From: Pannonibacter indicus
GTDB lineage: Bacteria > Pseudomonadota > Alphaproteobacteria > Rhizobiales > Stappiaceae
Length of the DNA: 64,000 bases
Direction of reading: 5' to 3'
Assembly: GCF_001418225.1 (NCBI RefSeq)
Contig: NZ_LIPT01000015.1
Span: 1-64,000 of the forward strand
Shown here piece by piece: positions 10,418-55,138 of the stretch. Numbering within the stretch: the stretch's first letter is position 1; each line of letters opens with the position of its first letter. The notes beneath the pieces are model-generated. The model searched no databases. It was not told the DNA's origin and saw only the letters and a program-made list of their open reading frames with translations. The position numbers were made by a program, and so were the translations under genes.

Positions 10418-11083
10418 TCAGACTGAAAGCCAGCTGCCAATCTCGGCTGGCTCATAGGCGATCAAGGCAGGCTTCTCCGCCTCAAGCTCCTCGCGCGAAC
10501 CATAGCCCCAGAGCACGCCGATGCTGCGCAACCCGTTGGCATTGGCGCCGATCAGGTCATGCTTGCGGTCGCCGATCATGACGCACTGCCCGGCCTCGCG
10601 CCCCTCTTCGGCCAGCAGATAGGCGATCAGCTCCGCCTTGGCCGAACGGGTGCCATCCAGCTCCGAGCCATAGACGCGGATGAAATCCGGCATCAGGCCG
10701 AAATGCTCGACGATCTTGCCTGCATAGGCATGCGGTTTGGAGGTAGCGACATAAAGCGAGAAACCAGCTTCAGACAGCTTGCGGGTCAGCGGCGCAATGC
10801 CGGAAATCAGCTCGTTCTCGTAAAGTCCAGTGACCGTGTAGCGCTCGCGGTAGAGCGCTACGGCCCGGTCCAGCAGCTCCTTGTCGCTGCTGTTGAGAAG
10901 CACCGCGAAACTGTCCCACAGCGGCGGGCCGATGCACCAGCCGAGCTCTTCGGCTGGCGGCACAACGGCGCCAAGGGCTGCGAGGGCATGCTGGATGGAC
11001 CGCGTGATCCCGGCAAAAGGATCAGTCAGGGTCCCGTCCAGATCGAACAGGACCGTATCGATCCCGCCAGAGGACTGCGTCAT
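10418..11083 (-). CDS. HAD-superfamily hydrolase (phosphoglycolate phosphatase-like)
   Basis: A 221-residue HAD phosphatase. Motif I is VLFDLDGTLTDP (nucleophile Asp about residue 14), motif II is the ATSKP segment, and motif IV is CVMIGDRKHDLIGANANGLR. An alpha-helical C1 cap covers about residues 20-85. The substrate cannot be read from sequence; relatives include phosphoglycolate phosphatase and pyrophosphatase PpaX. Its ATG overlaps the pccA stop by four bases, so it is co-translated with the carboxylase gene. Confidence 0.88.
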   Translation of the reverse strand: MTQSSGGIDTVLFDLDGTLTDPFAGITRSIQHALAALGAVVPPAEELGWCIGPPLWDSFAVLLNSSDKELLDRAVALYRERYTVTGLYENELISGIAPLTRKLSEAGFSLYVATSKPHAYAGKIVEHFGLMPDFIRVYGSELDGTRSAKAELIAYLLAEEGREAGQCVMIGDRKHDLIGANANGLRSIGVLWGYGSREELEAEKPALIAYEPAEIGSWLSV

Positions 11084-13092
11084 TCAAACTCCATGATCAC
11101 GGCATCCACCGCCAGGCTGTCGCCCGGCTTGGCCTTGATCGAGGAGATAACACAGTCCCGTTCGGCGCGAAGCACGTTTTCCATCTTCATGGCTTCGACG
11201 ATGGCCAGCTGCTCGCCTGCCTTCACCTCCTGCCCCTCGGTGACGGCGATGGAGACGACGAGGCCCGGCATCGGGCACAGCAGCAGGCGGGAGGTGTCCG
11301 GCGGCAGTTTTTCCGGCATCAGCGCATCCAGCTCCGCCGTGCGCGGGGTCATGACGCGGGCGATGACGGAGAAGCCCTGCCAGTCGAGCCGGTAGCCGCC
11401 GCGCACCGGGCGCACCTGCACCGTGACGCGCCTGCCGTCCACCGTGCCGTTCCACAAAACATTCCCCGGCACCCAGCTGGAAGTGACCGTGACCGGCGCG
11501 CCCTCGCCCACGGCAATATCCATCTCGATGGGCGTGCCGGGATAGCCTTCGGTGAGGCGCACGGGGATGTAGTCCTTGCCGACCTTGACGGTCCATGCCT
11601 CGCGCACCGCACCCGAATGCGGGCGCAGGCGGCCCGGCAGATGGTCCAGCCGCTCGCGCCGCAGGGTTTCCATGGTCAGTGCTACGGCGGCCAGCGTCTC
11701 CAGCGCAGCCGCATCCGGCTCCGCCGGGGCAAAGCCATCCGGAAATTCTTCGGCGATGAAGCCGGTGGAGAGAGTGCCGGCACGCCAGCGCGGATGGTTC
11801 ATCAGCGAGGTGAGGAAGGGCACGTTGTGCTGGATGCCATCCACGTAGAAAGCATCAAGCGCTTCGGACATGGCCGCGATCGCCCCGGCCCGGTCCGGCG
11901 CATGGGTGACCAGTTTGGCGATCATCGGGTCGTAGAACATGGAGATTTCAGAGCCCTCGACCACGCCCGTGTCATTGCGCACGGTCACCCCATCGCTCAC
12001 TTTTTCCTCCGGCGGCCTGTAGCGCACAAGCCGGCCGATGGAGGGCAGGAAATTGCGGTACGGGTCTTCCGCATAGATGCGGCTTTCCACGGCCCAGCCG
12101 TTCAGCTTTACATCGGACTGGCGGATGGAGAGCTTTTCACCGGCGGCAACGCGGATCATCTGCTCGACCAGATCGATGCCGGTGATCAGTTCCGTTACCG
12201 GATGCTCCACCTGCAGGCGGGTGTTCATTTCCAGGAAGAAGAAGCTCTTGTCCTGTCCGGCGACGAATTCCACCGTGCCAGCGCTGTCATAGTTCACGGC
12301 CTTGGCAAGGGCCACCGCCTGCTCGCCCATGGCGCGGCGGGTGGCCTCGTCCAAGAGCGGCGACGGTGCTTCCTCGATGACCTTCTGGTTGCGGCGCTGG
12401 ATCGAGCATTCCCGCTCGCCCAGATAGATCACGTTGCCATGCTTGTCGCCCAGCACCTGAATTTCGATATGGCGCGGGTTCTGGATGAATTTCTCAATGA
12501 ACACCCGGTCATCGCCGAAGGAGGATGCGGCTTCCGACTTGGAGCGGGCAAAGCCCTCATGCACTTCACCGGCGTTCCAGGCGATGCGCATGCCCTTGCC
12601 GCCGCCACCGGCGGAGGCCTTGATCATCACCGGATAGCCGATTTCCTCCGCGATCTGCACGGCTTCTTCGGGAGACCCGATCACCCCCAGATAGCCCGGC
12701 ACGGTGCTGACCCTGGCTGCATTGGCGAATTTCTTGGATTCGATCTTGTCACCCATGGCGTCGATGGCCTTGGGGTTGGGGCCGATGAAGACAATGCCTT
12801 CCGCTGCCAGTGCTGACGGAAAAGCGGCGCGCTCGGACAGGAAGCCATAGCCCGGATGCACGGCCTCAGCGCCGGTCTGCTTGCAGGCGGCGATGATCTT
12901 GTCCATGACCAGATAGGACTCGGATGCGGCGGCCGGGCCGATATGCACCGCCTCATCGGCCATTTCCACATGCAGGGCGTCCCGGTCGGCGTCGGAATAG
13001 ACGGCTACGGTCCTGATGCCCATCCGCTTCGCGGTCTTGATGACCCGGCAGGCGATCTCACCCCGGTTTGCGATCAGGATCTTTGAAAACAT
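11080..13092 (-). CDS. pccA: Propionyl-CoA carboxylase, biotin carboxylase/BCCP alpha subunit
   Basis: A 670-residue alpha subunit. The start at 13092 (MFSKILIANRGEIACRVIKT) is the standard N terminus. Biotin carboxylase occupies about residues 1-447, with ATP-grasp motif KASAGGGGKGMRIAW and catalytic EMNTRLQVEHPVTE. A BT linker domain follows, and the biotinyl domain is at the C terminus, EAMKMEN with the biotin-accepting Lys636. Domain order and length match PccA rather than 3-methylcrotonyl or acetyl-CoA AccC. It works with PccB encoded at 48211-49743, converting propionyl-CoA to methylmalonyl-CoA. Having alpha and beta at separate loci is common in Hyphomicrobiales. Confidence 0.94.
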   Translation of the reverse strand: MFSKILIANRGEIACRVIKTAKRMGIRTVAVYSDADRDALHVEMADEAVHIGPAAASESYLVMDKIIAACKQTGAEAVHPGYGFLSERAAFPSALAAEGIVFIGPNPKAIDAMGDKIESKKFANAARVSTVPGYLGVIGSPEEAVQIAEEIGYPVMIKASAGGGGKGMRIAWNAGEVHEGFARSKSEAASSFGDDRVFIEKFIQNPRHIEIQVLGDKHGNVIYLGERECSIQRRNQKVIEEAPSPLLDEATRRAMGEQAVALAKAVNYDSAGTVEFVAGQDKSFFFLEMNTRLQVEHPVTELITGIDLVEQMIRVAAGEKLSIRQSDVKLNGWAVESRIYAEDPYRNFLPSIGRLVRYRPPEEKVSDGVTVRNDTGVVEGSEISMFYDPMIAKLVTHAPDRAGAIAAMSEALDAFYVDGIQHNVPFLTSLMNHPRWRAGTLSTGFIAEEFPDGFAPAEPDAAALETLAAVALTMETLRRERLDHLPGRLRPHSGAVREAWTVKVGKDYIPVRLTEGYPGTPIEMDIAVGEGAPVTVTSSWVPGNVLWNGTVDGRRVTVQVRPVRGGYRLDWQGFSVIARVMTPRTAELDALMPEKLPPDTSRLLLCPMPGLVVSIAVTEGQEVKAGEQLAIVEAMKMENVLRAERDCVISSIKAKPGDSLAVDAVIMEFE

Positions 13093-21962: not shown

Positions 21963-21999
21963 GTCAAATCCTCCGGTCCGCCCACCCGGCGGCCTTGGG

Positions 22000-22212
22000 G
22001 TTGCACCACATCAGGCCGGTCTCCTGGCTCGCGGGTCTTCACCTTGCCGCGCCTTCCCGCAAGGGCTGGCCTTGCAGTGGCATGAGGCGGCAAGATTCTC
22101 CGCTGACAGTTGCGGGGGCAGCTGCGGCTTTGGAGCCCCGGATTGAGTCGCTCCGCACCGCATTCCCGTTTCATCCCCTTGGGCTTGGCCCGCCGGGGAA
22201 CCTGATCTTCTC
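22000..22212 (-). promoter_or_regulatory. Cobalamin riboswitch
   Basis: On the minus strand the B12 box AGCCAGGAGACCGGCCTGATG occupies 22009-22029. Upstream, in the right order, are GCCACTGCAAGG (GCCACTG at 22075-22081), GGGAAGGCG, CCCGCAACTGT, and the 5' part ATGAAACGGGAATGCGGTGC. The spacing and order fit the adenosylcobalamin aptamer. It precedes cobP-cobW-cobN-cobO-cobQ, so coenzyme B12 should repress the whole operon. The 5' boundary is approximate. The gap from 22213 to the tRNA at 22492 shows nothing else I can identify. Confidence 0.96.
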
Positions 22213-22491
22213 CTTGTAACGGCTTGGCGGCACCGCAGCAAGGACGCCCTTTGGGCACCTCAGCGGCGCAATTGCCGCCCCCGCATCCCTGGCAAAGGGT
22301 GCAAGGACCGGCACGGACGGGTTATCCACTGGCTCAAGCCGTTGAAAGACCGCAGATTTCCGCCAAAGCCGCCCCTGTGGAAAACTTTCTTGAAGAAAGG
22401 GCTTGGCAAATGCTCAAGGCCTTTGTTATACGCCTCTCACCGACGGCGGCGCACACAGCCGCCACCGCAAAGGGCGCTGCCCTTATGGTGA

Positions 22492-22567
22492 TCCGCGATA
22501 GCTCAGTTGGTAGAGCGTTCGACTGTTAATCGAATGGTCGCAGGTTCGAGTCCTGCTCGCGGAGCCA
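22492..22567 (+). tRNA. tRNA-Asn (GTT)
   Basis: A full cloverleaf. The acceptor TCCGCGA pairs with TCGCGGA, followed by discriminator G and an encoded CCA. The D arm is GCTCAGTTGGTAGAGC, the anticodon arm TTCGA-CTGTTAA-TCGAA carries anticodon GTT, and the T arm contains GGTTCGAGTCC. It is a single gene, not next to other tRNAs, and lies between the cobalamin riboswitch and fhuB. Confidence 0.98.
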
Positions 22568-42657: not shown

Positions 42658-42731
42658 GGCCTCGTGGCGGAGTGGTTACGCAGCGGATTGCAAATCCGTC
42701 CACCCCGGTTCGATTCCGGGCGAGGCCTCCA
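42658..42731 (+). tRNA. tRNA-Cys (GCA)
   Basis: The acceptor GGCCTCG pairs with CGAGGCC, followed by discriminator T and an encoded CCA. The anticodon arm GCGGA-TTGCAAA-TCCGT carries anticodon GCA, and the T arm contains GGTTCGATTCC. A single gene between pcm and the GGDEF-EAL gene. Confidence 0.97.
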
Positions 42732-42763: not shown

Positions 42764-45094
42764 TTATAGCGCTGGGCCTTGCGCTTCGAGCAGAGCCGTG
42801 GCTTCGTCAGCTGTCATGGGCATGCCGAGAAAGTAGCCTTGCGCCTCCGGGCAGCCAATTGCCCGCAGTGCCTCAACCTGTGATTCCCGTTCGACGCCTT
42901 CGGCGATGACCCGCAGCTTCAGCTTCTGCCCGAGTGTCACCACGGTCTCAGCGATCCCCCGGTCGCTTTCGTCCCTGTCAATGTGACGGACAAGGGCCTC
43001 GTCAATCTTGAGCCGGGAGACGGGGAAACGTCTCAGAGAAGCCAGGCTGGAGTGCCCTTTGCCGAAGTCGTCGATGGCGAGACCAACGCCCAGCGCGTGC
43101 AATTCGGCCATGACGGCCACCGCCCGCTCCACATTCTGCATCAGAACGCCTTCGGTGATTTCCAGCTCCAGAAGCCCCGGCAGCAAACCTGCCTGTTTCA
43201 GGGCGCCCATGACAGTCTGGGTCCAGTCCGGATCACTGAACTGCTGCGGCGCGATGTTGATGCTGATCTTAAAGCCGGAGAACCCCTGCTCCTGCCAGAG
43301 CCGCGCCTGCTCCACGGCCTGCCCCAGAACCACGTGGCCAAGTTCACAAATCAGCCCCGCCTCCTCCATCAGCGGCACGAAATAGCGCGGCATGATGAGG
43401 CCTTCGAAGGGATTTTCCCAGCGCACCAGCCCTTCGAAACCGGTAATCCGGTTTTCCATGAGATCGACCTGCGGCTGGTAATGCAAGATGAATTCATTGT
43501 TGCGCAGCGCACGGCGTATCCCTTCAAGCATCTGAAGCTTGCAGGAGGACGTCTGTCCTTCTTCCGGTGAGTAGAGGTGAAACGTATTGCGGCCAGCGCG
43601 TTTGGCCATATACATCGCCGTATCGGCACACTGGACCAGCGCGGCCGCCTCCGTCGCATCATCTGGATAGCAGGCAGCACCCATGCTGCCGGTGACGTGA
43701 AAAGACTGCCCGGCCAAATGCACCGGCAAAGACAGCTTTTCCCGCAGACCGCGCAGGAATCGGGGCAATTCCTCAGACGAGGCAATCGAACCCTCCAGGA
43801 TCAGCACAAACTCATCGCCGCCAAGGCGCAGCACCTTGCCACGGTCCTGGACCTCATCGCTCAGCCTTGCAGCAATGGACAGCAGAAGCCGGTCACCGGC
43901 GGCATGGCCGAGACTGTCATTGACGGTCTTGAAATTGTCGAGATCTACAAAGACCACCGCCACACGTTCATCCGGCAGGTGCACCCTGGCCAGCGCCGCG
44001 TCGATGAAGCTTTCCAGCTGGCTGCGGTTCGGCAGGCTGGTCAGCGGATCGTGGTGGGCGAGAAAGCGTATCTTCTCCTCGGCCCGCTTGCGTTCAATGG
44101 CAATGGCGGTGATCCGGGCCATATCGGCGATCAACCGGTCTTCCATGGGTCCCGGCATGCCCGGGGTCTGCTTGTAAATGGCGAATGTGCCGAGCACCCG
44201 GTTGTCCAGCGACATGATTGGTGTGGACCAGCAGCAGCGCAGCCCGAATTTCGTGGCAAGCGGGTGGAAGTCTGCCCAGAGCGGGTCGGCCTGAATGTCG
44301 GCAACCGTCACGGGTTTGCATGTGTAGGCCGCAGTGCCGCAGGAGCCGACGCTGGGGCCGATCTCGATACCATCAATCGCATCGCAATAGGCCTTCGGAA
44401 GACTCGGCGCCGCACCGTGGCGCAGATGGCGGCCATCCTCATCCAGAAGCAGGACGGAACAGATGGCACCGTCCAGTTGCCCCTCGATCAGACGGACCAT
44501 GCATTCCAGAATATCCGAGAGGGGGGCGCTGGAGGCAATCATCTCCAGCACATGCGCCTGGGCATCGCGCAGGCCATCGGCCTTGCGCCGCTCGGTGATG
44601 TCGCGGCAGACACCGAAGAGGCCAACGATGTTCCCGTCACCGTCCCGGAGAGGATATTTCGAGGACGCAAACCAGCGGCGGGCACCATTGGGTTGAATGA
44701 TGCATTCCTCCTTGTCGATCAAGGGAATGCCGGTGCGCAGAATCTGCCTCTCATCCCTGAAAAAGCCCAAGGCCACAGGCAAGGGATGCAGCTCGAGATC
44801 CGTCTTGCCGATCAGGCTGTCCGCCGACTCCAGCCCAAGATCGGCTGCAATGGCACGATTGGCGAGTACAAACCGGCAGCGGGTGTCCTTGACGAACAGG
44901 TAGTCAGCCACCTGATCAAACATGGTGCGCAGCCAGACATGCTCCTGCAGAAACTTTCCCCGTACCTGCAAGCCGGATTTTTGCATGGAACCTTCCTGCT
45001 CCGGCTGAGTTTCCAGCAAACCGGATATCTCTGCGTGGTCAGTACTGTCAAAATTACCACGCCCAGAAATCACAGGATTCCATTTGGAATTCAT
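42764..45094 (-). CDS. PAS-GAF-GGDEF-EAL cyclic-di-GMP signalling protein
   Basis: A 776-residue cytoplasmic protein; the start at 45094 (MNSKWNPVISG) is favoured by AGGGGAAG, although the frame opens 13 codons earlier. The order is PAS (about 50-175), GAF (about 185-335), GGDEF (about 340-510, intact LGGDEF at 425-429), EAL (about 520-775). The allosteric I-site RxxD before GGDEF is absent. In the EAL domain the first motif is EGL (554-556) and loop 6 reads DDFGKG instead of DDFGTG. The metal and general-base residues (E of ELEITE, DD, K of LKID, E of AEGVE) are all kept. It may make and degrade c-di-GMP; the net direction is unclear. Confidence 0.93.
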   Translation of the reverse strand: MNSKWNPVISGRGNFDSTDHAEISGLLETQPEQEGSMQKSGLQVRGKFLQEHVWLRTMFDQVADYLFVKDTRCRFVLANRAIAADLGLESADSLIGKTDLELHPLPVALGFFRDERQILRTGIPLIDKEECIIQPNGARRWFASSKYPLRDGDGNIVGLFGVCRDITERRKADGLRDAQAHVLEMIASSAPLSDILECMVRLIEGQLDGAICSVLLLDEDGRHLRHGAAPSLPKAYCDAIDGIEIGPSVGSCGTAAYTCKPVTVADIQADPLWADFHPLATKFGLRCCWSTPIMSLDNRVLGTFAIYKQTPGMPGPMEDRLIADMARITAIAIERKRAEEKIRFLAHHDPLTSLPNRSQLESFIDAALARVHLPDERVAVVFVDLDNFKTVNDSLGHAAGDRLLLSIAARLSDEVQDRGKVLRLGGDEFVLILEGSIASSEELPRFLRGLREKLSLPVHLAGQSFHVTGSMGAACYPDDATEAAALVQCADTAMYMAKRAGRNTFHLYSPEEGQTSSCKLQMLEGIRRALRNNEFILHYQPQVDLMENRITGFEGLVRWENPFEGLIMPRYFVPLMEEAGLICELGHVVLGQAVEQARLWQEQGFSGFKISINIAPQQFSDPDWTQTVMGALKQAGLLPGLLELEITEGVLMQNVERAVAVMAELHALGVGLAIDDFGKGHSSLASLRRFPVSRLKIDEALVRHIDRDESDRGIAETVVTLGQKLKLRVIAEGVERESQVEALRAIGCPEAQGYFLGMPMTADEATALLEAQGPAL

Positions 45095-45215
45095 AATACT
45101 TCCCCTGAGGAAATCCGCGCCATGCTTCAGCATGGTCGATAACCTACACTCATAAACTTAAATGAACCGCAAAACATCAACTTGGTGATGTCAATTTGTA
45201 TAAATTCAGACTTAA

Positions 45216-45315
45216 TACCAAGGCTTTGGATGCTGCCGCATCATGCCTTGAAATTGCTCATGCGCCGCACGGGCTTGACCGGCGCTCGATGAGCTTGACC
45301 CATCGGGCGCCGGTA
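45216..45315 (+). repeat. 100-bp structured intergenic repeat, copy 1
   Basis: An element bounded by TACC and GGTA that matches a second copy at 54262-54361 in 76 of 100 ungapped positions. Its 5' half folds as CAAGGC...GATGC-TGCC-GCATC...GCCTTG, followed by a conserved GCGCCG.ACGGGC. The 3' part is a 14-bp hairpin (ACCGGCGCTCGATG with CATCGGGCGCCGGT). It lies between the divergent GGDEF-EAL and cobC genes. I cannot match it to a named family. Confidence 0.78.
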
Positions 45316-45460
45316 AAAGTTCCGGAGCCGTGACAGGAGCCACTCAGACAAGGGCCGTGGGCGGCCGTCAGGGCAAAAAAACTTTTGCCGGGCGCTCCGA
45401 TCGGGTTATCTCCAGCTCACGAAGGCTCCACCGTCAGGGCCACAATCCAATCAAGAGAGC

Positions 45461-46483
45461 ATGATGAAACACGGCGGCGATCTGTTTCAGGCCATGGCAA
45501 CCTATGGCGGGGCGGAGGAAGACTGGCTGGACCTTTCCACCGGCATCAATCCGCATGCCTATCCGGTGCCTGCCAGCCTGCCCGCCTCCGCATGGACCCG
45601 TCTGCCCGCGCATGCCGCGCAGGAAAGCCTTCTGAAAGCAGCCCGTGCGGCCTATCAGGTGCCCGCGCATCTCGGCCTTGCCGCGGCGCCGGGCACGCAG
45701 GTGATCCTGCCGCATCTGCCGGCCCTTCTGCCGGAAGGCGGCGTCACGATCGCAGGCCCCACCTATTCCAGCCACTGCGATGCCTGGCGGGCGGCGGGGC
45801 GCAATGTGCAGGAAGTGACTGATATCTTCCATGCCGGAGCAGGCAGCCGGATTGCCCTCATCGTCAGCCCCAACAATCCCGATGGCCGCTGGCATGAACC
45901 GGAGGCGCTTCTGAACCTTGCCAGAGACATGCAGCGGCGCGGCGGCTTTCTGGTAGTGGATGAGGCCTTTGCCGACGTGGATCCGTCCCGCAGCCTGCTG
46001 CCGCATCTGGCGGATGAGCCGGTTCTGGTGTTGCGCTCCTTCGGTAAGTTCTTCGGTCTTGCGGGATTGCGCCTCGGCTTTCTGGCGGGACCGCAGAATG
46101 TGACGGATGCCCTTGCCCGGCGCCTCGAAAGCTGGTCCGTCAGCGGCCCGGCGCTGGAAGTCGGTACGCAGGCCCTGCGGGATCTGGACTGGCAGGCCGC
46201 CATGCGCAAGACGCTGGGGCAGGAAATGGCCGCACTTGAAGGCGTGCTGCGGGCCGCAGGCCTTGCGATCCATGGCGGCACTTCGCTTTACGTACTGACA
46301 GAGCATCCGGGTGCTGCCCGCCTGCATCAAGCGCTGGCGCGTCATCACATCTGGGTACGTGCCTTCGACTACGCTCCCAGTTGGCTGCGCTTTGGTCTGC
46401 CCGGCTCGCCGGAAGGCCTTGCCCGTCTGCGGCTGGCGCTCACCGAAACCATGGCATCACGCAAAGAGGCAACATCGTGCTGA
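45461..46483 (+). CDS. cobC: Threonine-phosphate decarboxylase
   Basis: A 340-residue fold-type I PLP enzyme of the CobC/CobD decarboxylase family; it makes (R)-1-aminopropan-2-ol phosphate for the lower axial arm of cobalamin. MKHGGDLFQAMATYGGAEED and WLDLSTGINPHAYP are the family N terminus. The PLP lysine is K196 in RSFGKFFGLAGLRLGF; SPNNPDGRW and VVDEAFADVDP complete the site. Two tandem ATGs lie at 45461 and 45464. It overlaps cobD by seven bases. No cobalamin riboswitch is visible upstream, unlike the other cob locus. Confidence 0.94.
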   Translation: MMKHGGDLFQAMATYGGAEEDWLDLSTGINPHAYPVPASLPASAWTRLPAHAAQESLLKAARAAYQVPAHLGLAAAPGTQVILPHLPALLPEGGVTIAGPTYSSHCDAWRAAGRNVQEVTDIFHAGAGSRIALIVSPNNPDGRWHEPEALLNLARDMQRRGGFLVVDEAFADVDPSRSLLPHLADEPVLVLRSFGKFFGLAGLRLGFLAGPQNVTDALARRLESWSVSGPALEVGTQALRDLDWQAAMRKTLGQEMAALEGVLRAAGLAIHGGTSLYVLTEHPGAARLHQALARHHIWVRAFDYAPSWLRFGLPGSPEGLARLRLALTETMASRKEATSC

Positions 46484-47451
46484 GTGACCCGCTGGCGCTC
46501 TGGCTGCTGCTGGGGGCCATAGCCCTTGATGCCGTCATTGGCGATCCGGACTGGCTGTGGCGGCGCCTGCCGCATCCGGTCGTGTGGATCGGCAAACTCA
46601 TCAACCTGCTGGACAGCAACCTCAACCGCGAAAGCTGGCCTGCTGCCTTGCGCCGTTTGGCAGGCCTCCTGACGCTTGTCCTGCTGGTGGCCGGGGGGAC
46701 GGGCACCGGTTTTCTGCTACAGGCAGGCCTTTCCGCCCTGCCCTATGGCGAGGCTGGGATCATTGTCATCGCCGCCGTGTTCCTCGCCCAGAACAGCCTC
46801 TACGTGCATGTGAAGGCCGTCGCCGATGGCTTGCGTAACGGGGGGCTGGCGGGCGGGCGCCGGGCCGTGTCGATGATCGTCGGGCGTGATCCGGAGCAGC
46901 TGGACGAGAGCGGTGTTTCGCGCGCCGCCATTGAATCCTGCGCCGAAAACTTCTCCGACGGCGTTGTGGCTCCCGTCTTCTGGTTCGCCATACTGGGCCT
47001 GCCGGGGCTTATCGCCTACAAGGCCGTCAACACCGCCGATTCCATGATCGGTCACAAGACCGCCCGGCATCAGGATTTCGGCTGGGCGTCCGCCCGTTTT
47101 GATGACCTGATCAACCTGCCTGCGTCCCGGCTTTCGGCCCTGTTCATTGCGTTCGCCGCACCTCTGGCCGGCGGCTCACCCTTGCGGTCCCTTGCCACGG
47201 TGCGCCGGGATGCCGGGCTGCACCGCTCCCCGAATGCCGGCTGGCCGGAGGCGGCGATGGCCGGGGCCCTTGGCGTCGCACTGGCGGGCCCGCGCGTCTA
47301 TGCCACCTACCGGGTGGAAGACCCTTTCATGAACCCGGACGGGAGCAAGGACGCAGGCGAGGCAGATATACGCCGCGCACTCAAGGTGCTGGCAGGGGCT
47401 TGCGCAATCGAGGCTTTGCTGGTTCTCATCATGGCTCTGGCATTATCCTGA
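46477..47451 (+). CDS. cobD: Adenosylcobinamide-phosphate synthase (CbiB/CobD)
   Basis: A 324-residue membrane protein that attaches the aminopropanol moiety to adenosylcobyric acid. The start is GTG at 46477 (LSDPLALWLLLGAIALDAVI), inside the end of cobC and preceded by AGAGG. Family motifs are GDPDWLWRRLPHPVVWIGKL, VSRAAIESCAENFSDGVVAP, NTADSMIGHKTARHQDFGWA and PNAGWPEAAMAGALGV. Four to five hydrophobic segments are present. It is translationally coupled to cobC. Confidence 0.95.
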   Translation: MLSDPLALWLLLGAIALDAVIGDPDWLWRRLPHPVVWIGKLINLLDSNLNRESWPAALRRLAGLLTLVLLVAGGTGTGFLLQAGLSALPYGEAGIIVIAAVFLAQNSLYVHVKAVADGLRNGGLAGGRRAVSMIVGRDPEQLDESGVSRAAIESCAENFSDGVVAPVFWFAILGLPGLIAYKAVNTADSMIGHKTARHQDFGWASARFDDLINLPASRLSALFIAFAAPLAGGSPLRSLATVRRDAGLHRSPNAGWPEAAMAGALGVALAGPRVYATYRVEDPFMNPDGSKDAGEADIRRALKVLAGACAIEALLVLIMALALS

Positions 47452-47487
47452 TGTCATGATCCATGAGAACACTGGCCGGACCGTGAG

Positions 47488-48096
47488 ATGATCCCGTTTT
47501 CCGCAGCTGCCGAGAATAACAAGACCCCCATCCTCGAAATCCTGAAAGACGCCTTTGCCGGGTCGAGCCGTGTGCTGGAAATTGCCAGCGGCACGGGCCA
47601 GCATGCGGTGCATTTCGCCAAGCACCTGCCGCATCTCGTCTGGCAGCCCAGCGATCTGCCCGAGCATCTGGCGGGCCTTGAACAGCGGATCGTTGAAACC
47701 GACCTCGACAACATCGGGGAACCGTTGGAGCTCGACGTGCTCGACCTGCCCTGGCCGACTCCGGACCGGGAGGCGGACGACGCTTTTGACGCCATTTATA
47801 CGTCGAACAGCCTGCACATCATCAGCTGGGAAGGCGTGGAAGCGTTCTTTGAAGGAGTTGGGGAAACGCTTGCCGATGGCGGCACTCTGGCGATCTATGG
47901 CGCCTTCAAATATGGCGGCGCCTTTACCACACCCAGCAACGAGGCCTTCGACCAGAGCCTGCGCAAGAAAGATCCGAAAAGCGGCCTTCGCGACTTTGAG
48001 CAGGTTGACGCCCTCGCCCGTGCCATCGGTCTGACACTGCTCGCCGACCATGCCATGCCTGCAAACAACCAGCTTCTGATCTACCGGCGGGGTTGA
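47488..48096 (+). CDS. DUF938 SAM-dependent methyltransferase-like protein
   Basis: A 202-residue DUF938 protein. FSAAAENNKTPILEILKDAF is the conserved N terminus, the SAM-binding motif I is VLEIASGTGQHAVHFAK (about residues 29-45), and YTSNSLHIISWEGVEAFF and IYGAFKYGGAFTTPSNEAFD are family signatures. The substrate is unknown. It follows cobD by 36 bases on the same strand but has no evident link to cobalamin synthesis. Confidence 0.88.
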   Translation: MIPFSAAAENNKTPILEILKDAFAGSSRVLEIASGTGQHAVHFAKHLPHLVWQPSDLPEHLAGLEQRIVETDLDNIGEPLELDVLDLPWPTPDREADDAFDAIYTSNSLHIISWEGVEAFFEGVGETLADGGTLAIYGAFKYGGAFTTPSNEAFDQSLRKKDPKSGLRDFEQVDALARAIGLTLLADHAMPANNQLLIYRRG

Positions 48097-48126
48097 GGGG
48101 CACAGCCCCTATCCCCACTCTGCATC

Positions 48127-48157
48127 GCCCCGGGCTCGCGCTGCGCTTGGCCGGGGT
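48127..48157. repeat. REP-like GC-rich hairpin between convergent genes
   Basis: GCCCCGG (48127-48133) faces CCGGGGT (48151-48157) around a loop of alternating GC (CTCGCGCTGCGCTTGG). This pattern is typical of short palindromic intergenic elements in alphaproteobacteria. It lies between the convergent DUF938 and pccB genes and may double as a terminator. Confidence 0.45.
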
Positions 48158-48210
48158 GACCCAGTGCCTGCAGCCAGAGGGCGAGCCCCATCGGAGCCCG
48201 CGCCTGTTTA

Positions 48211-49743
48211 TCAGAGCGGAATGTTGTCGTGCTTCTTCCAAGGCAGCTCTTCCTGCTTGGATCGCAGCAGGGCAAGGGCGCGGGAGACGCGCTTGCGGGT
48301 GGAATGCGGCATGATCACTTCATCGATATAGCCGCGCTCGGCCGCGACGAAGGGATTGGCGAAGCGATCCTCGTAGTCCTTGGTGCGCTTGGCGATCTTG
48401 TCCTTGTCGGACAATTCCGAGCGGTAGAGGATTTCGACCGCGCCCTTGGCGCCCATCACCGCGATTTCGGCGCTCGGCCAGGCATAGTTGATGTCGCCCC
48501 CAATGTGCTTGGAGCTCATCACGTCATAGGCGCCGCCATAAGCCTTGCGGGTGATCACCGTGACTTTCGGTACCGTTGCCTCGGCATAGGCAAACAGAAG
48601 CTTGGCGCCGTGCTTGATCAGCCCGCCATATTCCTGCGCCGTGCCCGGCAGGAAGCCCGGCACATCGACGAAGGTGACGACCGGAATGTTGAAGCAGTCG
48701 CAGAAGCGCACGAAACGGGCGGCCTTGCGGCTGGCGTCACTGTCCAGCACCCCCGCCAGCACCATCGGCTGGTTGGCGATGATGCCGACAGTACGCCCTT
48801 CGAGGCGGCCGAAGCCGGTAATGATGTTCTTCGCAAAGCCCGCCTGGATCTCGAAGAAATCCCCCTCGTCCAGCGTCTTCATCACAAGCTCCTTCATGTC
48901 GTAGGGCTTGTTCGGATTGTCCGGCACCAGCGTGTCGAGGCTCATGTCGATGCGGGAGGGATCGTCGTGGCAATCCACCTCCGGCACATCGGCCAGATTG
49001 TTCATAGGCAGGAAGTCGATGAGACGGCGCATTTCCAGAAGCGCCTCCACATCATTCTCGAAGGCGCCGTCCGCGATGGAGGACTTGGTGGTGTGGATGC
49101 TGGCACCGCCCAGTTCCTCTGAGGTCACCGTCTCGTTGGTCACGGTCTTCACCACATCCGGGCCGGTGACGAACATGTAGGACGTATCGCGCACCATGAA
49201 GATGAAGTCGGTCATGGCCGGGGAGTAAACGTCACCGCCCGCACAAGGGCCCATGATCAGCGAGATCTGCGGAATGACGCCGGAGGCGGTGACATTGCGC
49301 TGGAACACCTCGCCGTAACCGGCCAGCGCTGCCACGCCTTCCTGAATGCGCGCGCCGCCGGCATCGAACAGGCCGATGATGGGCGCGCGGTTCTTCAGGG
49401 CCATGTCCTGAATCTTGATGATTTTTTGGGCATGCGTCTCGGACAGGGAGCCGCCGAAGACCGTGAAGTCCTTGGAAAAAACATAGACGACACGGCCATT
49501 TACGGTGCCCCAACCGGTGACGACGCCATCGCCCGGGATATGCGCCTCGTCCATGCCGAAGTCCGTGCAGCGGTGCTGCTTGAACATGTCGAACTCCTCG
49601 AAGGACCCTTCGTCCAGCAGGATGTCGATCCGCTCGCGCGCCGTCAGCTTGCCGCGCCCGTGCTGGGCGTCGATGCGGCGCTGCCCGCCTCCCAGCCGCG
49701 CTGTCTCGCGCCGGTGCTCCAGTTCGGCCAGGATATCCTTCAT
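48211..49743 (-). CDS. pccB: Propionyl-CoA carboxylase beta subunit
   Basis: A 510-residue carboxyltransferase. The start at 49743 ([20 protein letters not shown]) is preferred to an ATG one codon earlier on AGAGG spacing and family alignment. The N-terminal domain has [20 protein letters not shown] and [20 protein letters not shown] (first acyl-CoA site). The C-terminal domain has [20 protein letters not shown] and [20 protein letters not shown] (carboxybiotin site). It pairs with PccA encoded at 11080-13092. The C-terminal [13 protein letters not shown] is characteristic of PccB. Confidence 0.96.
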
Positions 49744-49950
49744 CATCCGCCTCTTCAGAAAAAAACATCTGCCGCAGGGTCTACCACGTCAGAGCCAAAG
49801 ACGAGAAGTCAGCACAAAGAAGGACCTTTGCCGTCAACACCGGGAACATTGCACAACTTCTAGGCACATGAGCGTGAAGATTGTTCTTTTGCAGCCTGCG
49901 CGGATTTGCCATGCTTGCCTAAATGAACAGCAATAACGGCGGGGTACGGA

Positions 49951-51375
49951 ATGGCGCCAGAGCGGGAGGTCTTCAATGAGATGCTGGGGGCAGACGGGCG
50001 GCCAAGGCCGGCCTACGCAAGACTGGCCGAATGGCTCGACAGCCAGCCGAAAAACTTCCTGACGCGCAAAAGCCGGGAAGCAGAAACAATCTTCAGACGC
50101 CTTGGCATCACCTTTGCCGTCTATGGCGCTCAGGAGGCAACGGAACGCCTCATCCCCTTCGACCCCATCCCGCGCATCATCTCCGCCGCCGAGTGGCGCC
50201 GCCTGTCGGCCGGCATCGAGCAGCGCGTGCGAGCCCTCAACGCCTTTCTGCATGACATCTACCACCGGCAGGAAATCATCCGCGCCGGGCGGCTGCCGGC
50301 CGAACTGATCCTGCAGAATGATGCCTTCCTGCCGGAAATGGTGGGCTTCACTCCGGCCCGGCGCGTCTATTCGCACATCATCGGCACCGATCTGGTGCGC
50401 GTTGGCGAGAATGACTTCTACGTCCTGGAAGACAACACGCGCACGCCCTCCGGCGTCTCCTACATGCTGGAGAACCGGGAAACCATGATGCGCATGTTCC
50501 CGGATCTGTTCCAGATGCACCGGGTGGCGGCAATCGAGCAATATCCGGATCTTCTGCGCCAGACGCTGGAAAGCGTTGCGCCCGACACGGCGCGCAATGA
50601 ACCAACGATCTGTATCCTGACGCCGGGCATCTACAACTCGGCCTATTTCGAGCACGCTTTCCTCGCCGACCAGATGGGCGTCGAGCTGGTGGAAGGGCGC
50701 GATCTTTTCGTCGACAATGGCAAGGTCTGGATGCGCACCACGCGCCAGCCCAAGCAGGTGGACGTGATCTACCGGCGCATTGACGATGCCTTCCTTGATC
50801 CCCTCACCTTCCGCCCGGATTCCATGCTGGGTGTGCCGGGGCTCTTCGATGCCTACCGGGCGGGCACGGTCACCATCTGCAACGCGCCGGGCACCGGCAT
50901 TGCCGATGACAAGGCCATCTATGCCTATGTGCCGGACATCATCGAGTTCTACACCGGCCAGAAGCCGATCCTGAACAACGTGCCGACCTGGAACTGCTCG
51001 CGGCCGGACGACTTTGCCTATGTGCTCGACAACCTCACCGATATCGTCGTCAAGGAAGTGCATGGCTCGGGCGGCTACGGCATGCTGATCGGCCCCACCG
51101 CGTCCAAGCGCGAAATTGCCGCCTTCCGGGAGATCCTGAAGGCCAATCCGAAGAACTATATCGCCCAGCCGACCCTGTCGCTGTCTGCCTGCCCCACCCA
51201 TGTGGCCTCCGGGGTTGCACCCCGCCACGTTGACCTGCGCCCCTATGTCCTGATCGGTGATCAGGTGCGGATCACCCCCGGCGGGCTGACCCGCGTGGCG
51301 CTGAAGAAGGGCTCCCTGGTCGTGAATTCGAGCCAGGGCGGCGGCACCAAGGATACCTGGGTTCTGGAGGACTGA
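49951..51375 (+). CDS. Circularly permuted ATP-grasp protein (DUF404/DUF407)
   Basis: A 474-residue protein of the circularly permuted ATP-grasp family. FNEMLGADGRPRPAYARLAE and RRLGITFAVYGAQEATERLI are the N terminus, FYVLEDNTRTPSGVSYMLEN carries an acidic metal-site segment, and VVKEVHGSGGYGMLIGPTAS is the permuted ATP-binding loop. It ends RVALKKGSLVVNSSQGGGTK. It starts a four-gene run with an alpha-E protein, a transglutaminase and Anbu. Comparative work on such neighbourhoods proposes a peptide-modification system; the substrate is unknown. Confidence 0.93.
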   Translation: MAPEREVFNEMLGADGRPRPAYARLAEWLDSQPKNFLTRKSREAETIFRRLGITFAVYGAQEATERLIPFDPIPRIISAAEWRRLSAGIEQRVRALNAFLHDIYHRQEIIRAGRLPAELILQNDAFLPEMVGFTPARRVYSHIIGTDLVRVGENDFYVLEDNTRTPSGVSYMLENRETMMRMFPDLFQMHRVAAIEQYPDLLRQTLESVAPDTARNEPTICILTPGIYNSAYFEHAFLADQMGVELVEGRDLFVDNGKVWMRTTRQPKQVDVIYRRIDDAFLDPLTFRPDSMLGVPGLFDAYRAGTVTICNAPGTGIADDKAIYAYVPDIIEFYTGQKPILNNVPTWNCSRPDDFAYVLDNLTDIVVKEVHGSGGYGMLIGPTASKREIAAFREILKANPKNYIAQPTLSLSACPTHVASGVAPRHVDLRPYVLIGDQVRITPGGLTRVALKKGSLVVNSSQGGGTKDTWVLED

Positions 51376-51380
51376 TCATC

Positions 51381-52325
51381 ATGCTCGGCCGCACAGCCGC
51401 CTCCCTTTTCTGGATGTCGCGCTACAAGGAGCGCTCCCACAACACCGCACGCCTGCTGGAAGCGGCATGGCGCACCGCCATGATCCCGCAACAGGGCATG
51501 AACGAGGCCGAAGACTGGCGCTCGGCGCTGGCAGGCTCGGGCTGCGAAGCGGCCTTCATGGAGAAATCCGGCGAGGTGACCTCGCGCGCGGTGACCAATT
51601 TCATGCTGTTCGACAAGGAGAACCCCTCCTCCGTGCGCAACAGCCTGGAGATGGCCCGCAACAATGCCCGCGCCGTGCGCACCGGCATCACGTCCGAACT
51701 CTGGGAGGCGATCAACACCACCTGGATCGAATTCAGCGACGTGAAGCCGCAGACGCTGACGCAGGACAAGCTGCCGGAGTTCCTCGCCTGGATTGGCCAG
51801 CGCGCCATGCTGTTCCGCGGGGCTCTGCTGGGCACGCTCCTGCGCGACGACGGTTATTCCTTCTCGCAGCTTGGCCATTTCGTCGAGCGGGCGGACCATA
51901 CGGCCCGGGTGCTGGATGCCAAATACTGGATCCTGCTGCCGGTGACCGACATGGCCGGCAAGGGGCACCATCACCAGTGGTCCTCGATCCTGCGCGTCAT
52001 GTCCGGCCTCAGAAGCTACCGCTTCGCTTTCCCCAATGCGGAGCTGAAGGCGGCGAATATCGCCGAGTTCCTGATCCTGCGCCGGGAAATGCCGCGCTCG
52101 CTGGCGCACAGCTACGACTGGCTTAACAGCACGATGAATGATCTGACCGCCTATTACGGCGAGCAGATGCCGAGCGCCCTTCTCGCAGGCACGATGCAGG
52201 AACAGCTCAGAACCGGGCACATGCGGGATATCTACAGCAAGGGCCTGCATGAGTTCCTGGTGGACTTCACCCTCCGGAACAACGCTTTCGCCGATCGGGT
52301 CGCCCGTGATTACAATTTCGCCTGA
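51381..52325 (+). CDS. Alpha-E domain-containing protein
   Basis: A 314-residue all-helical alpha-E protein, five bases after the ATP-grasp stop. TAASLFWMSRYKERSHNTAR and LGHFVERADHTARVLDAKYW are the two conserved repeats, and RAVTNFMLFDKENPSSVRNS is also typical. It is found almost exclusively next to circularly permuted ATP-grasp genes and is presumed to work with them. No catalytic role can be read from the sequence. Confidence 0.93.
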   Translation: MLGRTAASLFWMSRYKERSHNTARLLEAAWRTAMIPQQGMNEAEDWRSALAGSGCEAAFMEKSGEVTSRAVTNFMLFDKENPSSVRNSLEMARNNARAVRTGITSELWEAINTTWIEFSDVKPQTLTQDKLPEFLAWIGQRAMLFRGALLGTLLRDDGYSFSQLGHFVERADHTARVLDAKYWILLPVTDMAGKGHHHQWSSILRVMSGLRSYRFAFPNAELKAANIAEFLILRREMPRSLAHSYDWLNSTMNDLTAYYGEQMPSALLAGTMQEQLRTGHMRDIYSKGLHEFLVDFTLRNNAFADRVARDYNFA

Positions 52326-52361
52326 CCGAAGAAGAAGGCCGAAGCCAGGAGACAGCATCCG

Positions 52362-53174
52362 ATGCGCCTGACAGTCCGCCACACGACGCATTACCGTTAT
52401 GACACCCCGCTTGCCAATGCGATGCAGCAGTTGCGGCTGACCCCGCCATCCTGCGCAGGCCAGACGATCCTTGACTGGCGTATCGAAGCGCCAGGCATGG
52501 ACCGGGCCACCACCTACCGGGATGCCTTCGGCAATCTGGTGCATATGGTCTCCAGCCGCGAAGCGCTGGAGGCCGTCACCATCACCGCCTCCGGCACGGT
52601 GGAAACCACCGACCTCAACGGCGTTCTGGGCGAGGAGCCCGTGGAGACGCCGGTGCGGATCTACACCCGCGTCACGCCGCTGACAGAGGCCAACAACGCG
52701 ATCCGCAAGCTCTCCGGCCTGCTGACGCCAGAAGACCAGATCGGCGGCTGCCATGCGCTGATGCACGCGATCCGCGACAAGGTGGCCTACAAAGTGGGCG
52801 TCACCGAAACCCATGCCACGGCCATTCAGGTGCTCGCCGCCGGGGAAGGCGTGTGCCAGGACCATGCACACATCTTCATCGCCGCCGCCCGCGCGGCCGG
52901 GGTTCCCGCCCGCTATGTCTCGGGCTATCTGCTTCTGGACGAGGATCAGGAGTCCGAAGCTCATCACGCATGGGCCGAGGCCTATGTCGAGGGGCTGGGC
53001 TGGGTCGGCTTTGACGTTTCCAATGCGATTTGCCCGACCGAGCGCTATATCCGCTTGACGGCCGGGCTGGACTCGCGTTCCGCTGCTCCGATACGCGGCA
53101 TCCGGTTCGGCGGCATGGAAGAAAACCTCAATGTCGAGGTTGATGTCACCCGCGCCGGAAGCCAGCAACAATAA
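52362..53174 (+). CDS. Transglutaminase-like cysteine peptidase family protein
   Basis: A 270-residue protein with an N-terminal bacterial transglutaminase-associated beta domain (MRLTVRHTTHYRYDTPLANA) and a transglutaminase-like core. The catalytic Cys is in AAGEGVCQDHAHIFIAAARA, the His in SEAHHAWAEAYVEGLGWVGF, and the Asp in the following FDVSNA segment. Start at 52362 behind AGGAG. Such proteins may cleave or cross-link peptide bonds. It is the third gene of the Anbu operon; its stop lies 40 bases before the preferred Anbu start. Confidence 0.93.
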   Translation: MRLTVRHTTHYRYDTPLANAMQQLRLTPPSCAGQTILDWRIEAPGMDRATTYRDAFGNLVHMVSSREALEAVTITASGTVETTDLNGVLGEEPVETPVRIYTRVTPLTEANNAIRKLSGLLTPEDQIGGCHALMHAIRDKVAYKVGVTETHATAIQVLAAGEGVCQDHAHIFIAAARAAGVPARYVSGYLLLDEDQESEAHHAWAEAYVEGLGWVGFDVSNAICPTERYIRLTAGLDSRSAAPIRGIRFGGMEENLNVEVDVTRAGSQQQ

Positions 53175-53214
53175 CAGGCCGAAGCGGCCGGATGATGAAG
53201 CGGACCCCCTTGCC

Positions 53215-53946
53215 GTGACTTACTGCGTTGGCCTCAAACTTGACCGTGGTCTCGTCTTTGCTGCCGACACCCGCACCAATGCGGGTGTCGATAATATCGC
53301 CACCTTCAAGAAGCTGCATGTCTGGGAAGAGCCGGGCGAGCGTGTCTTCACCCTGCTGACCGCCGGCAATCTCGCCATCACCCAGTCGGTGGTGTCGATC
53401 CTGTCCGAACAGATCGCCTCGCCCACCCTCAACAAGACCAATCTGATGAGCGTGGACACCATGTTCCAGGCGGCCCGGCTTGTCGGGCAGGCTGTGCGGG
53501 ATGTGCGGGCGCTGGATGGCGATGCACTGGCGGCAAGCGCGGAGAGTTTCTTCGTCACCTTCGTCTTCGGCGGCCAGATCAAGGGCGAGGCGCCACGCCT
53601 GTTCCAGATCTATTCGGCTGGCAACTTCATCGAGGCCACCGACGACACCATGTTCTTCCAGATCGGCGAGCACAAATATGGCAAGCCGATCCTCGACCGT
53701 GTGACCCGCCGCGACATGCGCCTTGGTGAAGCGGCCAAGATGGTACTGCTGTCCTTCGATTCCACCCTGCGCTCGAACCTGTCGGTCGGCATGCCCATCG
53801 ACCTGATGCTCTACAACACCGACAGCTTCACCGCCCACCGCCAGAAGCGCATCGACCGCGAAGACCCCTATTTCCAGACGCTTTCCTCGGAATGGTCCAA
53901 CGCCCTGCGCAAGGCGTTCACGGAAATTCCGGAGTTCGAGATCTGA
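53215..53946 (+). CDS. Anbu proteasome-like peptidase (bacterial beta-subunit homologue)
   Basis: Ntn-hydrolase fold protein, 243 residues from the GTG at 53215. This start yields Met-Thr-Tyr-Cys-Val-Gly, so Met removal would expose Thr as nucleophile, as in known Anbu proteins. An earlier ATG at 53131 or 53143 would add a Pro/Asn-rich extension with no propeptide features, overlapping the transglutaminase gene. Further landmarks are VFAADTRTNAGVDNIATFKK (Asp and Lys partners) and FTLLTAGNLAITQSVVSILS. The Shine-Dalgarno at the GTG is weak, consistent with coupling. Anbu assembles into a ring or lock-washer; its substrates are unknown. Confidence 0.9.
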   Translation: MTYCVGLKLDRGLVFAADTRTNAGVDNIATFKKLHVWEEPGERVFTLLTAGNLAITQSVVSILSEQIASPTLNKTNLMSVDTMFQAARLVGQAVRDVRALDGDALAASAESFFVTFVFGGQIKGEAPRLFQIYSAGNFIEATDDTMFFQIGEHKYGKPILDRVTRRDMRLGEAAKMVLLSFDSTLRSNLSVGMPIDLMLYNTDSFTAHRQKRIDREDPYFQTLSSEWSNALRKAFTEIPEFEI

Positions 53947-54006
53947 GGCGCCGGACGCTGGATTGCTACGGCTGTGCCTTGGGCATTCGGCCTTTCTTCC
54001 TCCACC

Positions 54007-54113
54007 GTCCCGGCCTTGTGCCGGGACCTGTCAGGGACGAGTGGCGTCAGATTGAAAGTAGAAGAACTTGACCGGAAGTGCGCCCATCACAGGCCCCGGC
54101 ACAAGGCCGGGGC
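54007..54113. repeat. BIME-like inverted pair of palindromic units
   Basis: Two 25-base units, 54007-54031 and 54089-54113, are reverse complements except for two positions. Each is itself a hairpin (CCCGGC-CTTGT-GCCGGG and CCCCGGC-ACAAG-GCCGGGG). The 57-base spacer is AT-richer. The pair lies after the Anbu gene in a 415-base convergent intergenic region that also holds the 100-bp repeat; 54114-54261 shows only short AT-rich words. Confidence 0.72.
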
Positions 54114-54261
54114 GGCGCGGAGTGTGGCGAGAGGCAGTGCTCACACACAGATTCAAGCGGTTGAGAAACAGATTCAACGCGTTTGAAACCTGGCTCAACG
54201 TGCTGCGAGTTTGATTCCGGTCATGCCCTCAACCTACTGAATTCAAACCGCTTTTGCCTTA

Positions 54262-54361
54262 TACCAAGGCTTTCGATGCTGACGCATCACGCCTTGAAAA
54301 TGCACAAGCGCCGTACGGGCTTAACCAATGCTTGATGAGTCAAGCTCATCAAACATTGGTA
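54262..54361 (+). repeat. 100-bp structured intergenic repeat, copy 2
   Basis: The same length and ends (TACCAA...TTGGTA) as copy 1 at 45216-45315. The 5' hairpin is nearly unchanged (GATGC-TGAC-GCATC inside CAAGGC/GCCTTG). The 3' hairpin differs in sequence but pairs ACCAATGC.TTGATGAG with CTCATCAA.CATTGGT, extending the stem by two bp at the loop. Its last base is immediately next to the stop codon of the ATP12 gene, so the hairpin may act as that gene's terminator. Confidence 0.78.
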
Positions 54362-55138
54362 TTATCCACGACCTAGGATCAGCGCGGCGGCGTCGAACTC
54401 GGTCTTCTTGTAGGTGCGGATGCGGCGGGCCTCGGTGTCCTCGCCCCAGAGTTCGGCGTTCCAGTCCTCGTCCACATGGGCTGCGGCCCAGAGGTCTTCG
54501 GCGCCATGGTTGCGGCGGGCGAGAAGCAGGGCGATGACGGCCGAACCGGTGACGCTGGTCACCGTGTGCAGAGCGGCGAGTTCCAGCGCCGTAAAACCAT
54601 CCAGCGCCTTGCGGAAAGCGGCCACCAGCGCCTCGTCCTGCGGCACATGCATGATGCCGCAGGACAGGCGGAAACGGCCGCCGAGTTCGGCTTCTGCGGC
54701 AGCCAGCAGCGGGTCCCAGCTCTGGCGCTGGCGTTCGGTCAAGCGCTCCGGCTCGCTGGCGCGGTAGCACAGGGCATCATTGCCGGCATAACGGGAGATC
54801 TCGTCCGCGACCTCCGCAAAGCGGGCCCCGACCGCATCGATCGCCGCATTGGCGATACGGGTCAGCGGCATGATGCCGGGGTTGATCACCTTTTCCTGCG
54901 CCTGCCATTCGGCAGCAACTGCGGCAGCAATGCGGGCATCGGGCAGAAGCAGCGGTTTGCGGCCCGGTGTCTTCACCGCGCGGCCATCCAGCAGCACTGC
55001 GTGCCCCCCCTCAGCGGGCGCGGATGAAGCAACATCATAGAAGCGCTTGGGCAGTTCCCGGCGCGAGAGTTCCTTGGCCCGCTCGACCGGATCATATTTG
55101 GCAAGGTCCGCGTGGATCTCTTCAAAGATATCGCGCAT
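54362..55138 (-). CDS. ATP12-family chaperone (F1-ATPase assembly factor homologue)
   Basis: A 258-residue ATP12 protein. LPKRFYDVASSAPAEGGHAV and LLDGRAVKTPGRKPLLLPDA are the N-terminal signature. Mid-protein NPGIMPLTRIANAAIDAVGA, DALCYRASEPERLTERQRQS and the W-D-P-L segment follow, and LHTVTSVTGSAVIALLLARR is the family's late motif. In mitochondria ATP12 binds F1 alpha; the role in alphaproteobacteria is presumed similar. Its ATG overlaps the stop of the HAD gene by one base. The gene ends flush against the 100-bp repeat. Confidence 0.93.
   Translation of the reverse strand: MRDIFEEIHADLAKYDPVERAKELSRRELPKRFYDVASSAPAEGGHAVLLDGRAVKTPGRKPLLLPDARIAAAVAAEWQAQEKVINPGIMPLTRIANAAIDAVGARFAEVADEISRYAGNDALCYRASEPERLTERQRQSWDPLLAAAEAELGGRFRLSCGIMHVPQDEALVAAFRKALDGFTALELAALHTVTSVTGSAVIALLLARRNHGAEDLWAAAHVDEDWNAELWGEDTEARRIRTYKKTEFDAAALILGRG

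Follow-up and report, generated by a model that had tools for sequence, protein, structure and literature searches.

CIR elements of Caulobacter and Brucella are described as intergenic repeats of ∼110 bp made of two arms and a linker, with GANTC at the apex of one arm and with TA termini (PMC2229807, PMC10969869, in the sections that deal with them). In the table of the 2007 review their target duplication is entered as '?', and the accompanying text calls for more information on their movement (PMC2229807). The window, i.e. the whole stretch of 64,000 nucleotides of Pannonibacter indicus DNA analysed here (contig NZ_LIPT01000015.1, positions 1 to 64,000), contains two copies of a 100-bp repeat whose family resembles a repeat type described in 2003 in related bacteria. 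Both repeats very probably represent a CIR-type transposable element that is ∼100 bp long and non-autonomous. This kind of element is already known, being CIR-type on anatomy; its insertion rule is the new part.

Comparison with described repeats

We file the element as CIR-type on anatomy, by comparison with the descriptions of CIR1–CIR4 only. Like CIR, it is ∼100–110 bp long, occurs in an alphaproteobacterium in many intergenic copies, has two independently folding arms with a linker, and carries 5′-TA-3′ termini: among the 72 full-length copies analysed, the first base is T in 64 and the second A in 48 (G in 20), and the last two bases are T in 53 and A in 44. The original prediction recognised no described family, which has to be revised, as the anatomy fits that given for CIR in the relevant part of PMC2229807. 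There are also differences. GANTC is described as highly conserved in CIR, whereas here it stands at the apex of the 3′ arm in 16 of the 72 own copies and in 10 of 16 young copies from public assemblies, compared with 1.0% of background 14-mers. Anywhere in the element, it occurs in 20 of the 72 copies, compared with 32% of shuffled copies; 13 of 17 other stretches carry one. The review gives CIR no terminal inverted repeat, whereas the tips here share TACCAA and sometimes more, and a TNA duplication stands here against the '?' for CIR.

The Brucella repeats Bru-RS1 and Bru-RS2, from the same order, are likewise palindromic, intergenic and of similar length (103–106 bp), as far as their descriptions allow the comparison (PMC3163539, PMC10800456, PMC2266754). 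IS711 is reported to insert into Bru-RS at YTAR with a TA duplication, but this is insertion into the repeat and not movement of the repeat itself. A set of ∼110-bp repeats in 400 kb of Sinorhizobium meliloti pSymB, some of which we take to be RIME, failed the covariance model that we built from 34 aligned copies of the element (best of three matches, E 0.33). RIME are ∼108 bp long with two palindromes, a likeness to the element. They are intergenic repeats of rhizobia, as far as the description in PMC2573895 goes. The classical bacterial miniature inverted-repeat transposable elements (MITEs) ERIC, RUP and Correia/NEMIS are also small, non-coding and mobile, with stable stem-loops and TA termini, but according to the review (PMC2229807, Table 1) their ends pair with each other, whereas here each end folds into a separate arm and the duplicated triplet is TNA.

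The two copies in the window

The original prediction of two 100-bp copies in one orientation, with TACC...GGTA ends and 76 of 100 positions identical, was borne out at both loci. Copy 1 lies in a divergent gap, with an open reading frame (ORF) at 42764-45133 (−) on one side and another at 45461-46483 (+) on the other. Copy 2 directly adjoins the stop codon of gene 54362-55138 on the minus strand. The features are as follows, with E-values from the covariance model.

45213..45215, no strand, left flank of copy 1, TAA (the right flank, 45316-45318, is AAA)
45216..45315, + strand, element copy 1, 100 bp, E 4.1e-23
45219..45250, + strand, 5′ arm of copy 1, hairpin CAAGGC...GCCTTG around GATGC...GCATC
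45256..45276, + strand, linker core of copy 1, the stretch best conserved among families with unrelated arms
45279..45313, + strand, 3′ arm of copy 1, hairpin with covarying stem
54259..54261, no strand, left target-duplication triplet of copy 2, TTA, 3 bp
54262..54361, + strand, element copy 2, 100 bp, E 1.2e-24
54302..54322, + strand, linker core of copy 2
54325..54359, + strand, 3′ arm of copy 2
54337..54341, no strand, apical GAGTC (a GANTC site) in the 3′ arm of copy 2; no such site at this place in copy 1
54362..54364, no strand, right target-duplication triplet of copy 2, TTA, on the minus strand the TAA stop of ORF 54362-55138
54362..55138, − strand, gene whose stop codon serves as the insertion site of copy 2; its product, we assume, resembles an ATP12-family chaperone

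A three-base target duplication and empty sites

The repeat is a non-autonomous mobile element that duplicates a 3-bp TNA target. From 91 profile hits we kept 72 full-length copies, the rest having no end or flank or being repeats of a kept copy. The triplet directly outside the element was TNA on the left in 50 of these copies, on the right in 47 and on both sides in 36. Where both sides had TNA, the middle base was identical in 26 of the 36 pairs, compared with 9.8 expected; none of 100 000 permutations reached this number. Agreement between the flanks peaked at exactly three offsets (50, 46 and 47 of 72) and lay between 14 and 32 elsewhere. Beyond the triplet there was a mild preference for C before it and for G or C after it.

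The duplication was also seen in four public assemblies, where 13 of 16 full-length copies had an identical TNA on both sides. These copies came from 16 stretches (two from L051 and none from L045) and were picked by an exact interior pattern, so that the sample is biased toward young copies.

Filled and empty versions of a site were found on plasmids. Plasmid NZ_CP013069.1 of P. phragmitetus strain 31801 reads TTA, element, TTA, where strain BB has no element and the site is TCA. The two plasmids differ in length here by 103 bp, i.e. the element plus one triplet, between flanking blocks of 95.9 and 94.6% identity. In a sister species (G002) copy 2 has an empty site, next to which a 1-bp indel appears when the letters are aligned by eye; at the site of copy 1 the sequence is shorter by ∼99 bp and the flanks have diverged. 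The empty-site comparisons were made by setting the letters side by side, two alignments being of little use. A target duplication and empty sites, two marks of a MITE, are thus both present.

Placement of copies at stop codons

Most copies are located between the 3′ ends of genes, and a stop codon is very often the precise site. With genes called by a simple coding-measure gene caller, 30 of the 72 copies adjoined the stop of a neighbouring gene, with zero bases between; one copy was called inside a gene. Of the noncoding TNA sites in these loci (n = 1993), stop codons made up 181 (9.1%), compared with 41.7% of the copies (binomial p 2e-13). Convergent gaps account for 19% of gap length but hold 38 of the 72 copies, including the one also called inside a gene (p 3e-10). 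Within these gaps 20 of the 38 copies were at stops, compared with 23.5% expected (p 1e-4). The other two gap classes gave 5/11 (18.1% expected) and 5/13 (8.4% expected), and of the 10 remaining copies, in divergent or open gaps, none was at a stop. Under a rule based on ORFs only, 35 of 72 copies met a stop with the element edge as placed; once the edge was moved by one to six bases either way, the number never exceeded 3.

Similar placement was seen outside this genome. In the RefSeq annotation of NZ_CP013069.1, 5 of 11 full copies were flush with the end of a coding sequence (positions 250,001-259,999 left out). Of the 16 copies from public assemblies, nine were flush with the end of an ORF of at least 157 codons (eight TAA/TGA and one TAG), while 6.4% of 3587 TNA sites in that background lay at the ends of ORFs of at least 150 codons. 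The homologue of gene 54362-55138 in G002 has TAG at the stop codon in question (by eye). The orientation of the element relative to the abutted gene was mixed, 21 copies being antisense and nine sense (n = 30, p 0.04); we dropped strand bias at stop codons, 21/30 antisense being too weak.

Read on one of its two strands, any TNA triplet is either TAA or TGA. When the element inserts at a stop codon and duplicates the TNA, a stop remains directly before the element, so that the end of the frame and the protein are unchanged. In the open-licence papers searched we found no description of stop-codon placement.

One further observation concerns NZ_CP013069.1 itself: five proteins with identical accessions lie near both ends of the circular record (5626-12102 and 341658-348134), which suggests an overlap left in the assembly.

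Copy number and distribution

Searching the own genome and related genomes with the covariance model, as the original prediction had proposed, gave further copies, about 140 of them in the own genome. In this genome (4.17 Mb) there were 149 matches at E ≤ 1, of which 141 had E < 0.001 (150 of 2857 candidates scored). The copy number is approximate, as at least two matches (C5:14237 and C7:171589) are reverse-strand echoes of copies already counted. A BLAST search with copy 1 gave at least 56 matches (40 of 123 candidates scored). Full copies were mostly 98–102 bp long. The identical model gave 142 matches at E ≤ 0.001 in P. phragmitetus DSM 14782 (150 candidates scored).

Within the genus, two genomes had at least 99 copies, and three others had 9, 9 and 13; we count these jumps as support for transposition. 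Among 36 additional relatives, two genomes had weak matches only (2 and 5). Matches were found in at least 6 of 397 genomes of an order sample (own genome and G002 included) and in at least 6 of 385 genomes of a class sample (own genome included); both are lower bounds, since stricter filters were used and 10 candidates were scored per genome. An assembly labelled Novosphingobium naphthalenivorans (G405), from another order and possibly contaminated, had 12 matches, and two of three copies inspected there share a stem type particular to them (loci L048, L196, L199 and L202 in G405). In L048 the copy adjoins a stop codon and is flanked by TTA left and right. Phages gave no match to the repeat.

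Incomplete copies were also seen. Six loci (L028, L031, L033, L034, L036 and L038) carry half copies in which the 5′ arm and linker are kept (approximately model positions 1-66) and the 3′ arm is missing. Identity to the left part of locus L020 is 99% for the half copy at C2:398982 of G000 and 100% for the sequence at C4:110073 of G002. At L150 3905-4048 (−), two partial copies lie end to end, as if an element had inserted into an element.

Search for a transposase

A sister genome (G004) contains five identical copies of a 932-bp IS5-family element (NF033580), whose transposase has ISRtr4 as its nearest named relative (94% identity). Like the repeat, this element has a 3-bp TNA duplication, found at cTNAg in all five copies, and two of the five are at the stop codons of ORFs of 362 and 286 codons. 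Unlike the repeat, it is autonomous. A 3-bp TNA duplication marks the IS1031 group.

Other candidates were rejected. Three of the five PF01609 matches in the own genome lie within ∼2 kb of truncated copies, but the inverted ends found for two of these three are unrelated to TACC, and PF13359 and PF13586 gave nothing with TACC ends. Around the plasmid gene for WP_058901059.1, a 'DDE transposase family protein' (L183 27709-28452, −), neither inverted ends nor a duplication could be made out convincingly. The ends of IS5 relatives differ from those of the repeat in genomes that carry distant copies, being GAGTCC and GTGACC/GAGTCC in G261 and G006, where the end scan required TNA on both sides. 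Terminal inverted repeats common to the repeat and an autonomous element, the remaining mark of a MITE, were not found among the transposase families searched.

Folding and covariation

Copies 1 and 2 were more stable than all 200 of their dinucleotide shuffles (z −5.5 and −6.1), and folding was strong on either strand (five folds, z −5.3 to −6.7). Between the two copies, element pairs 66-96, 67-95 and 68-94 change from G-C, G-C and C-G to A-T, A-T and T-A, and pair 72-90 from C-G to T-A, as originally described. The covariation test that had been called for gave a signal above shuffles by cells and by score, but not by pair count. In the 34-copy alignment, 50 cells were changed on both sides of a pair, compared with a shuffled mean of 16.7 (0/500 shuffles reached 50), and the covariation score was 0.268, compared with 0.146 for shuffled alignments and 0.035–0.099 for slid partners. 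The number of pairs with two-sided change, eight, was unexceptional (shuffled mean 6.2; 47/500 reached 8). All eight are in the 3′ hairpin, in keeping with the claim that compensatory change is concentrated there and that the 5′ hairpin is nearly fixed.

Selection on an RNA from one strand should favour G-U over A-C. In the 72-copy alignment the 3′ arm had 701 of 860 cells in Watson–Crick pairing, 53 G-U and 43 A-C, and the 5′ arm had 19 G-U and 30 A-C; without a clear G-U lead over the 72 copies, RNA selection is not clearly supported. The best-preserved 34 copies lean towards G-U, by 26 to 10 for the ten RNAalifold pairs (p 0.011) and by 28 to 16 for all twelve pairs (p 0.10). The remaining 38 copies gave 25 G-U and 27 A-C.

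None of the 4227 Rfam models matched a copy, with the window searched at the gathering threshold, and over 12 loci with copies two weak matches (E ≤ 1) were found, neither on a copy. No terminator-like site was found at copy 1. Of the earlier suggestion of selection on structure, as in a small RNA family, the covariation is confirmed and selection on an RNA is not clearly supported: we rejected a small RNA family on the Rfam result and on the lack of a clear G-U preference over 72 copies, while noting the lean in the best-preserved 34. Certain stem types, such as ACTCTC and ATGCTC, recur at several loci. In our reading, amplified lineages differ in their stems, which afterwards decay as DNA.

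The linker core in other alphaproteobacteria

Other alphaproteobacteria and prophage-type contigs also have the linker GCTCAAGCGCCGCRCGGGCTT, or a close variant, between arms that are quite different. Although the arms differ in sequence across this linker family, they remain palindromes. With a strict end pattern, three of the 17 loci examined (L129, L207 and L210) had identical TNA duplications; at most of the others the tips were degenerate or different. Of 11 members folded, nine formed two separate arms, whereas L129 and L207 fold end to end. Among plasmids, a 35-bp core query matched 36 records, mostly marginally; of four matches inspected, L220 (Methylobacterium currus) shows an element and L217–L219 do not.

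Other features of the window

A second palindromic motif, of the CCCGGCCTTGTGCCGGG type, is present at 54009-54112 as two inverted copies just upstream of copy 2. Across the own-genome loci examined there were 17 matches to this motif (overlapping patterns, both strands, window included), and it is possibly another repeat family. The Rfam matches in the window are listed below.

10200-10357, − strand, FMN riboswitch
21997-22220, − strand, cobalamin riboswitch
22492-22564, + strand, tRNA
42658-42728, + strand, tRNA

Discussion

If both repeats are copies of a CIR-type transposable element, a DDE transposase acting in trans would move it; this enzyme would most likely belong to the IS5 family, because an IS5 element in the genus leaves the same TNA duplications. 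Selection would then remove insertions in genes and promoters. With less weight, we suggest that the arms may need a palindromic form for transposition, and that each amplified lineage may have its own stem, which would give covariation between copies with decay afterwards. Insertion at stop sites would spare genes and so may permit a high copy number without gene loss.

Several observations weigh against transposition by this rule. Copy 1 is flanked by TAA and AAA, so that its target duplication is not intact, and an identical TNA pair is missing from 46 of the 72 copies. A third locus, L020, is filled both in the own genome and in G002, so that recent insertion does not account for every copy. 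Inspection of the PF01609, PF13359 and PF13586 matches and their ends in the five genus genomes revealed no transposase with TACC...GGTA ends; two of these genomes (G001 and G003) had no match to the three families at the thresholds used, yet have nine copies each. The ends of the IS5 element in G004 (GAG...CTC; GAGGCTG/GAGTCGG) differ from the TACC of the repeat, so that of the two features looked for in an IS5 derivative the 3-bp TNA duplication was found and matching ends were not. As to placement, 42 of the 72 copies abut no called stop, 2 of the 11 full copies on NZ_CP013069.1 overlap an annotated coding sequence (108241 and 121875), and the genome-wide excess at stops (41.7% against 9.1%) comes mostly from location between gene 3′ ends.

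The fold invites two other explanations. The repeat might function as RNA in 3′ untranslated regions, in transcription end, RNase III cleavage or protection of mRNA ends, with selection for RNA pairing producing the compensatory changes. Strong folds, the excess of copies between convergent genes, compensatory change beyond shuffles and the 26:10 ratio in the best-preserved 34 copies all fit this, and the Br-REP1 repeats in 3′ untranslated regions of Bradyrhizobium are transcribed, according to the portion of PMC5082802 that deals with them. We nevertheless consider it unlikely: the 26:10 ratio rests on pairs chosen by a method that counts G-U as paired, and G-U is not clearly favoured over the 72 copies or in the other 38. 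Moreover, both orientations occur at stops, copy 1 has no T-run terminator, no copy has an Rfam match, and the TNA duplication is left unexplained. Template switching is known to rewrite quasipalindromes, and the covariation could have arisen without selection if template switching or hairpin-templated repair perfected imperfect palindromes at the DNA level. This is somewhat more plausible than a role as RNA, but still doubtful. In its favour, the long, near-perfect 3′ palindrome holds all the two-sided changes, and decay over the 72 copies is approximately symmetric for G-U and A-C, but stem types that recur at several loci fit amplified lineages equally well. It would also explain the pairing and not the mobility, and is compatible with a CIR-type transposable element.

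The other two explanations concern insertion. The transposase may not aim at stop codons at all but take any TNA, the survivors being those that spare genes and promoters; to this we give an even chance. Restriction to convergent gaps raises the expectation from 9.1% to 23.5%, so that much of the stop excess is a matter of place. However, an excess persists in three gap classes (20/38, 5/11 and 5/13, as above), against a background that is conservative because it still contains the flanks of filled sites. A REP/RAYT system, in which a Y1 tyrosine transposase moves hairpins, would account for terminal hairpins and an intergenic location, but is highly improbable given the size of 100 bp and the observed 3-bp TNA duplication, as Y1 transposases are not known to make a 3-bp duplication. 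The original prediction had offered a transposase-dependent REP-like element: spread driven by a transposase agrees with our results, and the REP-like part is rejected because this is a 100-bp element with a 3-bp target duplication.

Beyond the favoured reading as a CIR-type transposable element, we tentatively propose a more general possibility, which we think improbable as it stands: CIR-type elements could be transposons whose ends, each of them a free-standing hairpin, are recognised by shape. The hairpin stems might then turn over as long as they stay paired, and only the TACC tips and the ∼20-bp linker core would be read as sequence; families with unrelated arms would share the core, and some of them the TNA duplication, across alphaproteobacteria. 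The TNA rule would make stop codons a safe harbour, and genomes might fill at gene ends without gene loss.

The TNA duplication, the empty sites and the placement at stops together provide a concrete and testable insertion rule for CIR-type elements, which narrows the search for the transposase to enzymes leaving a 3-bp TNA duplication. In these genomes a hairpin that directly adjoins the end of a gene is not necessarily a terminator or a small RNA, which calls for caution. Placement at stop codons would offer a mobile element a simple route to a high copy number without breaking genes.

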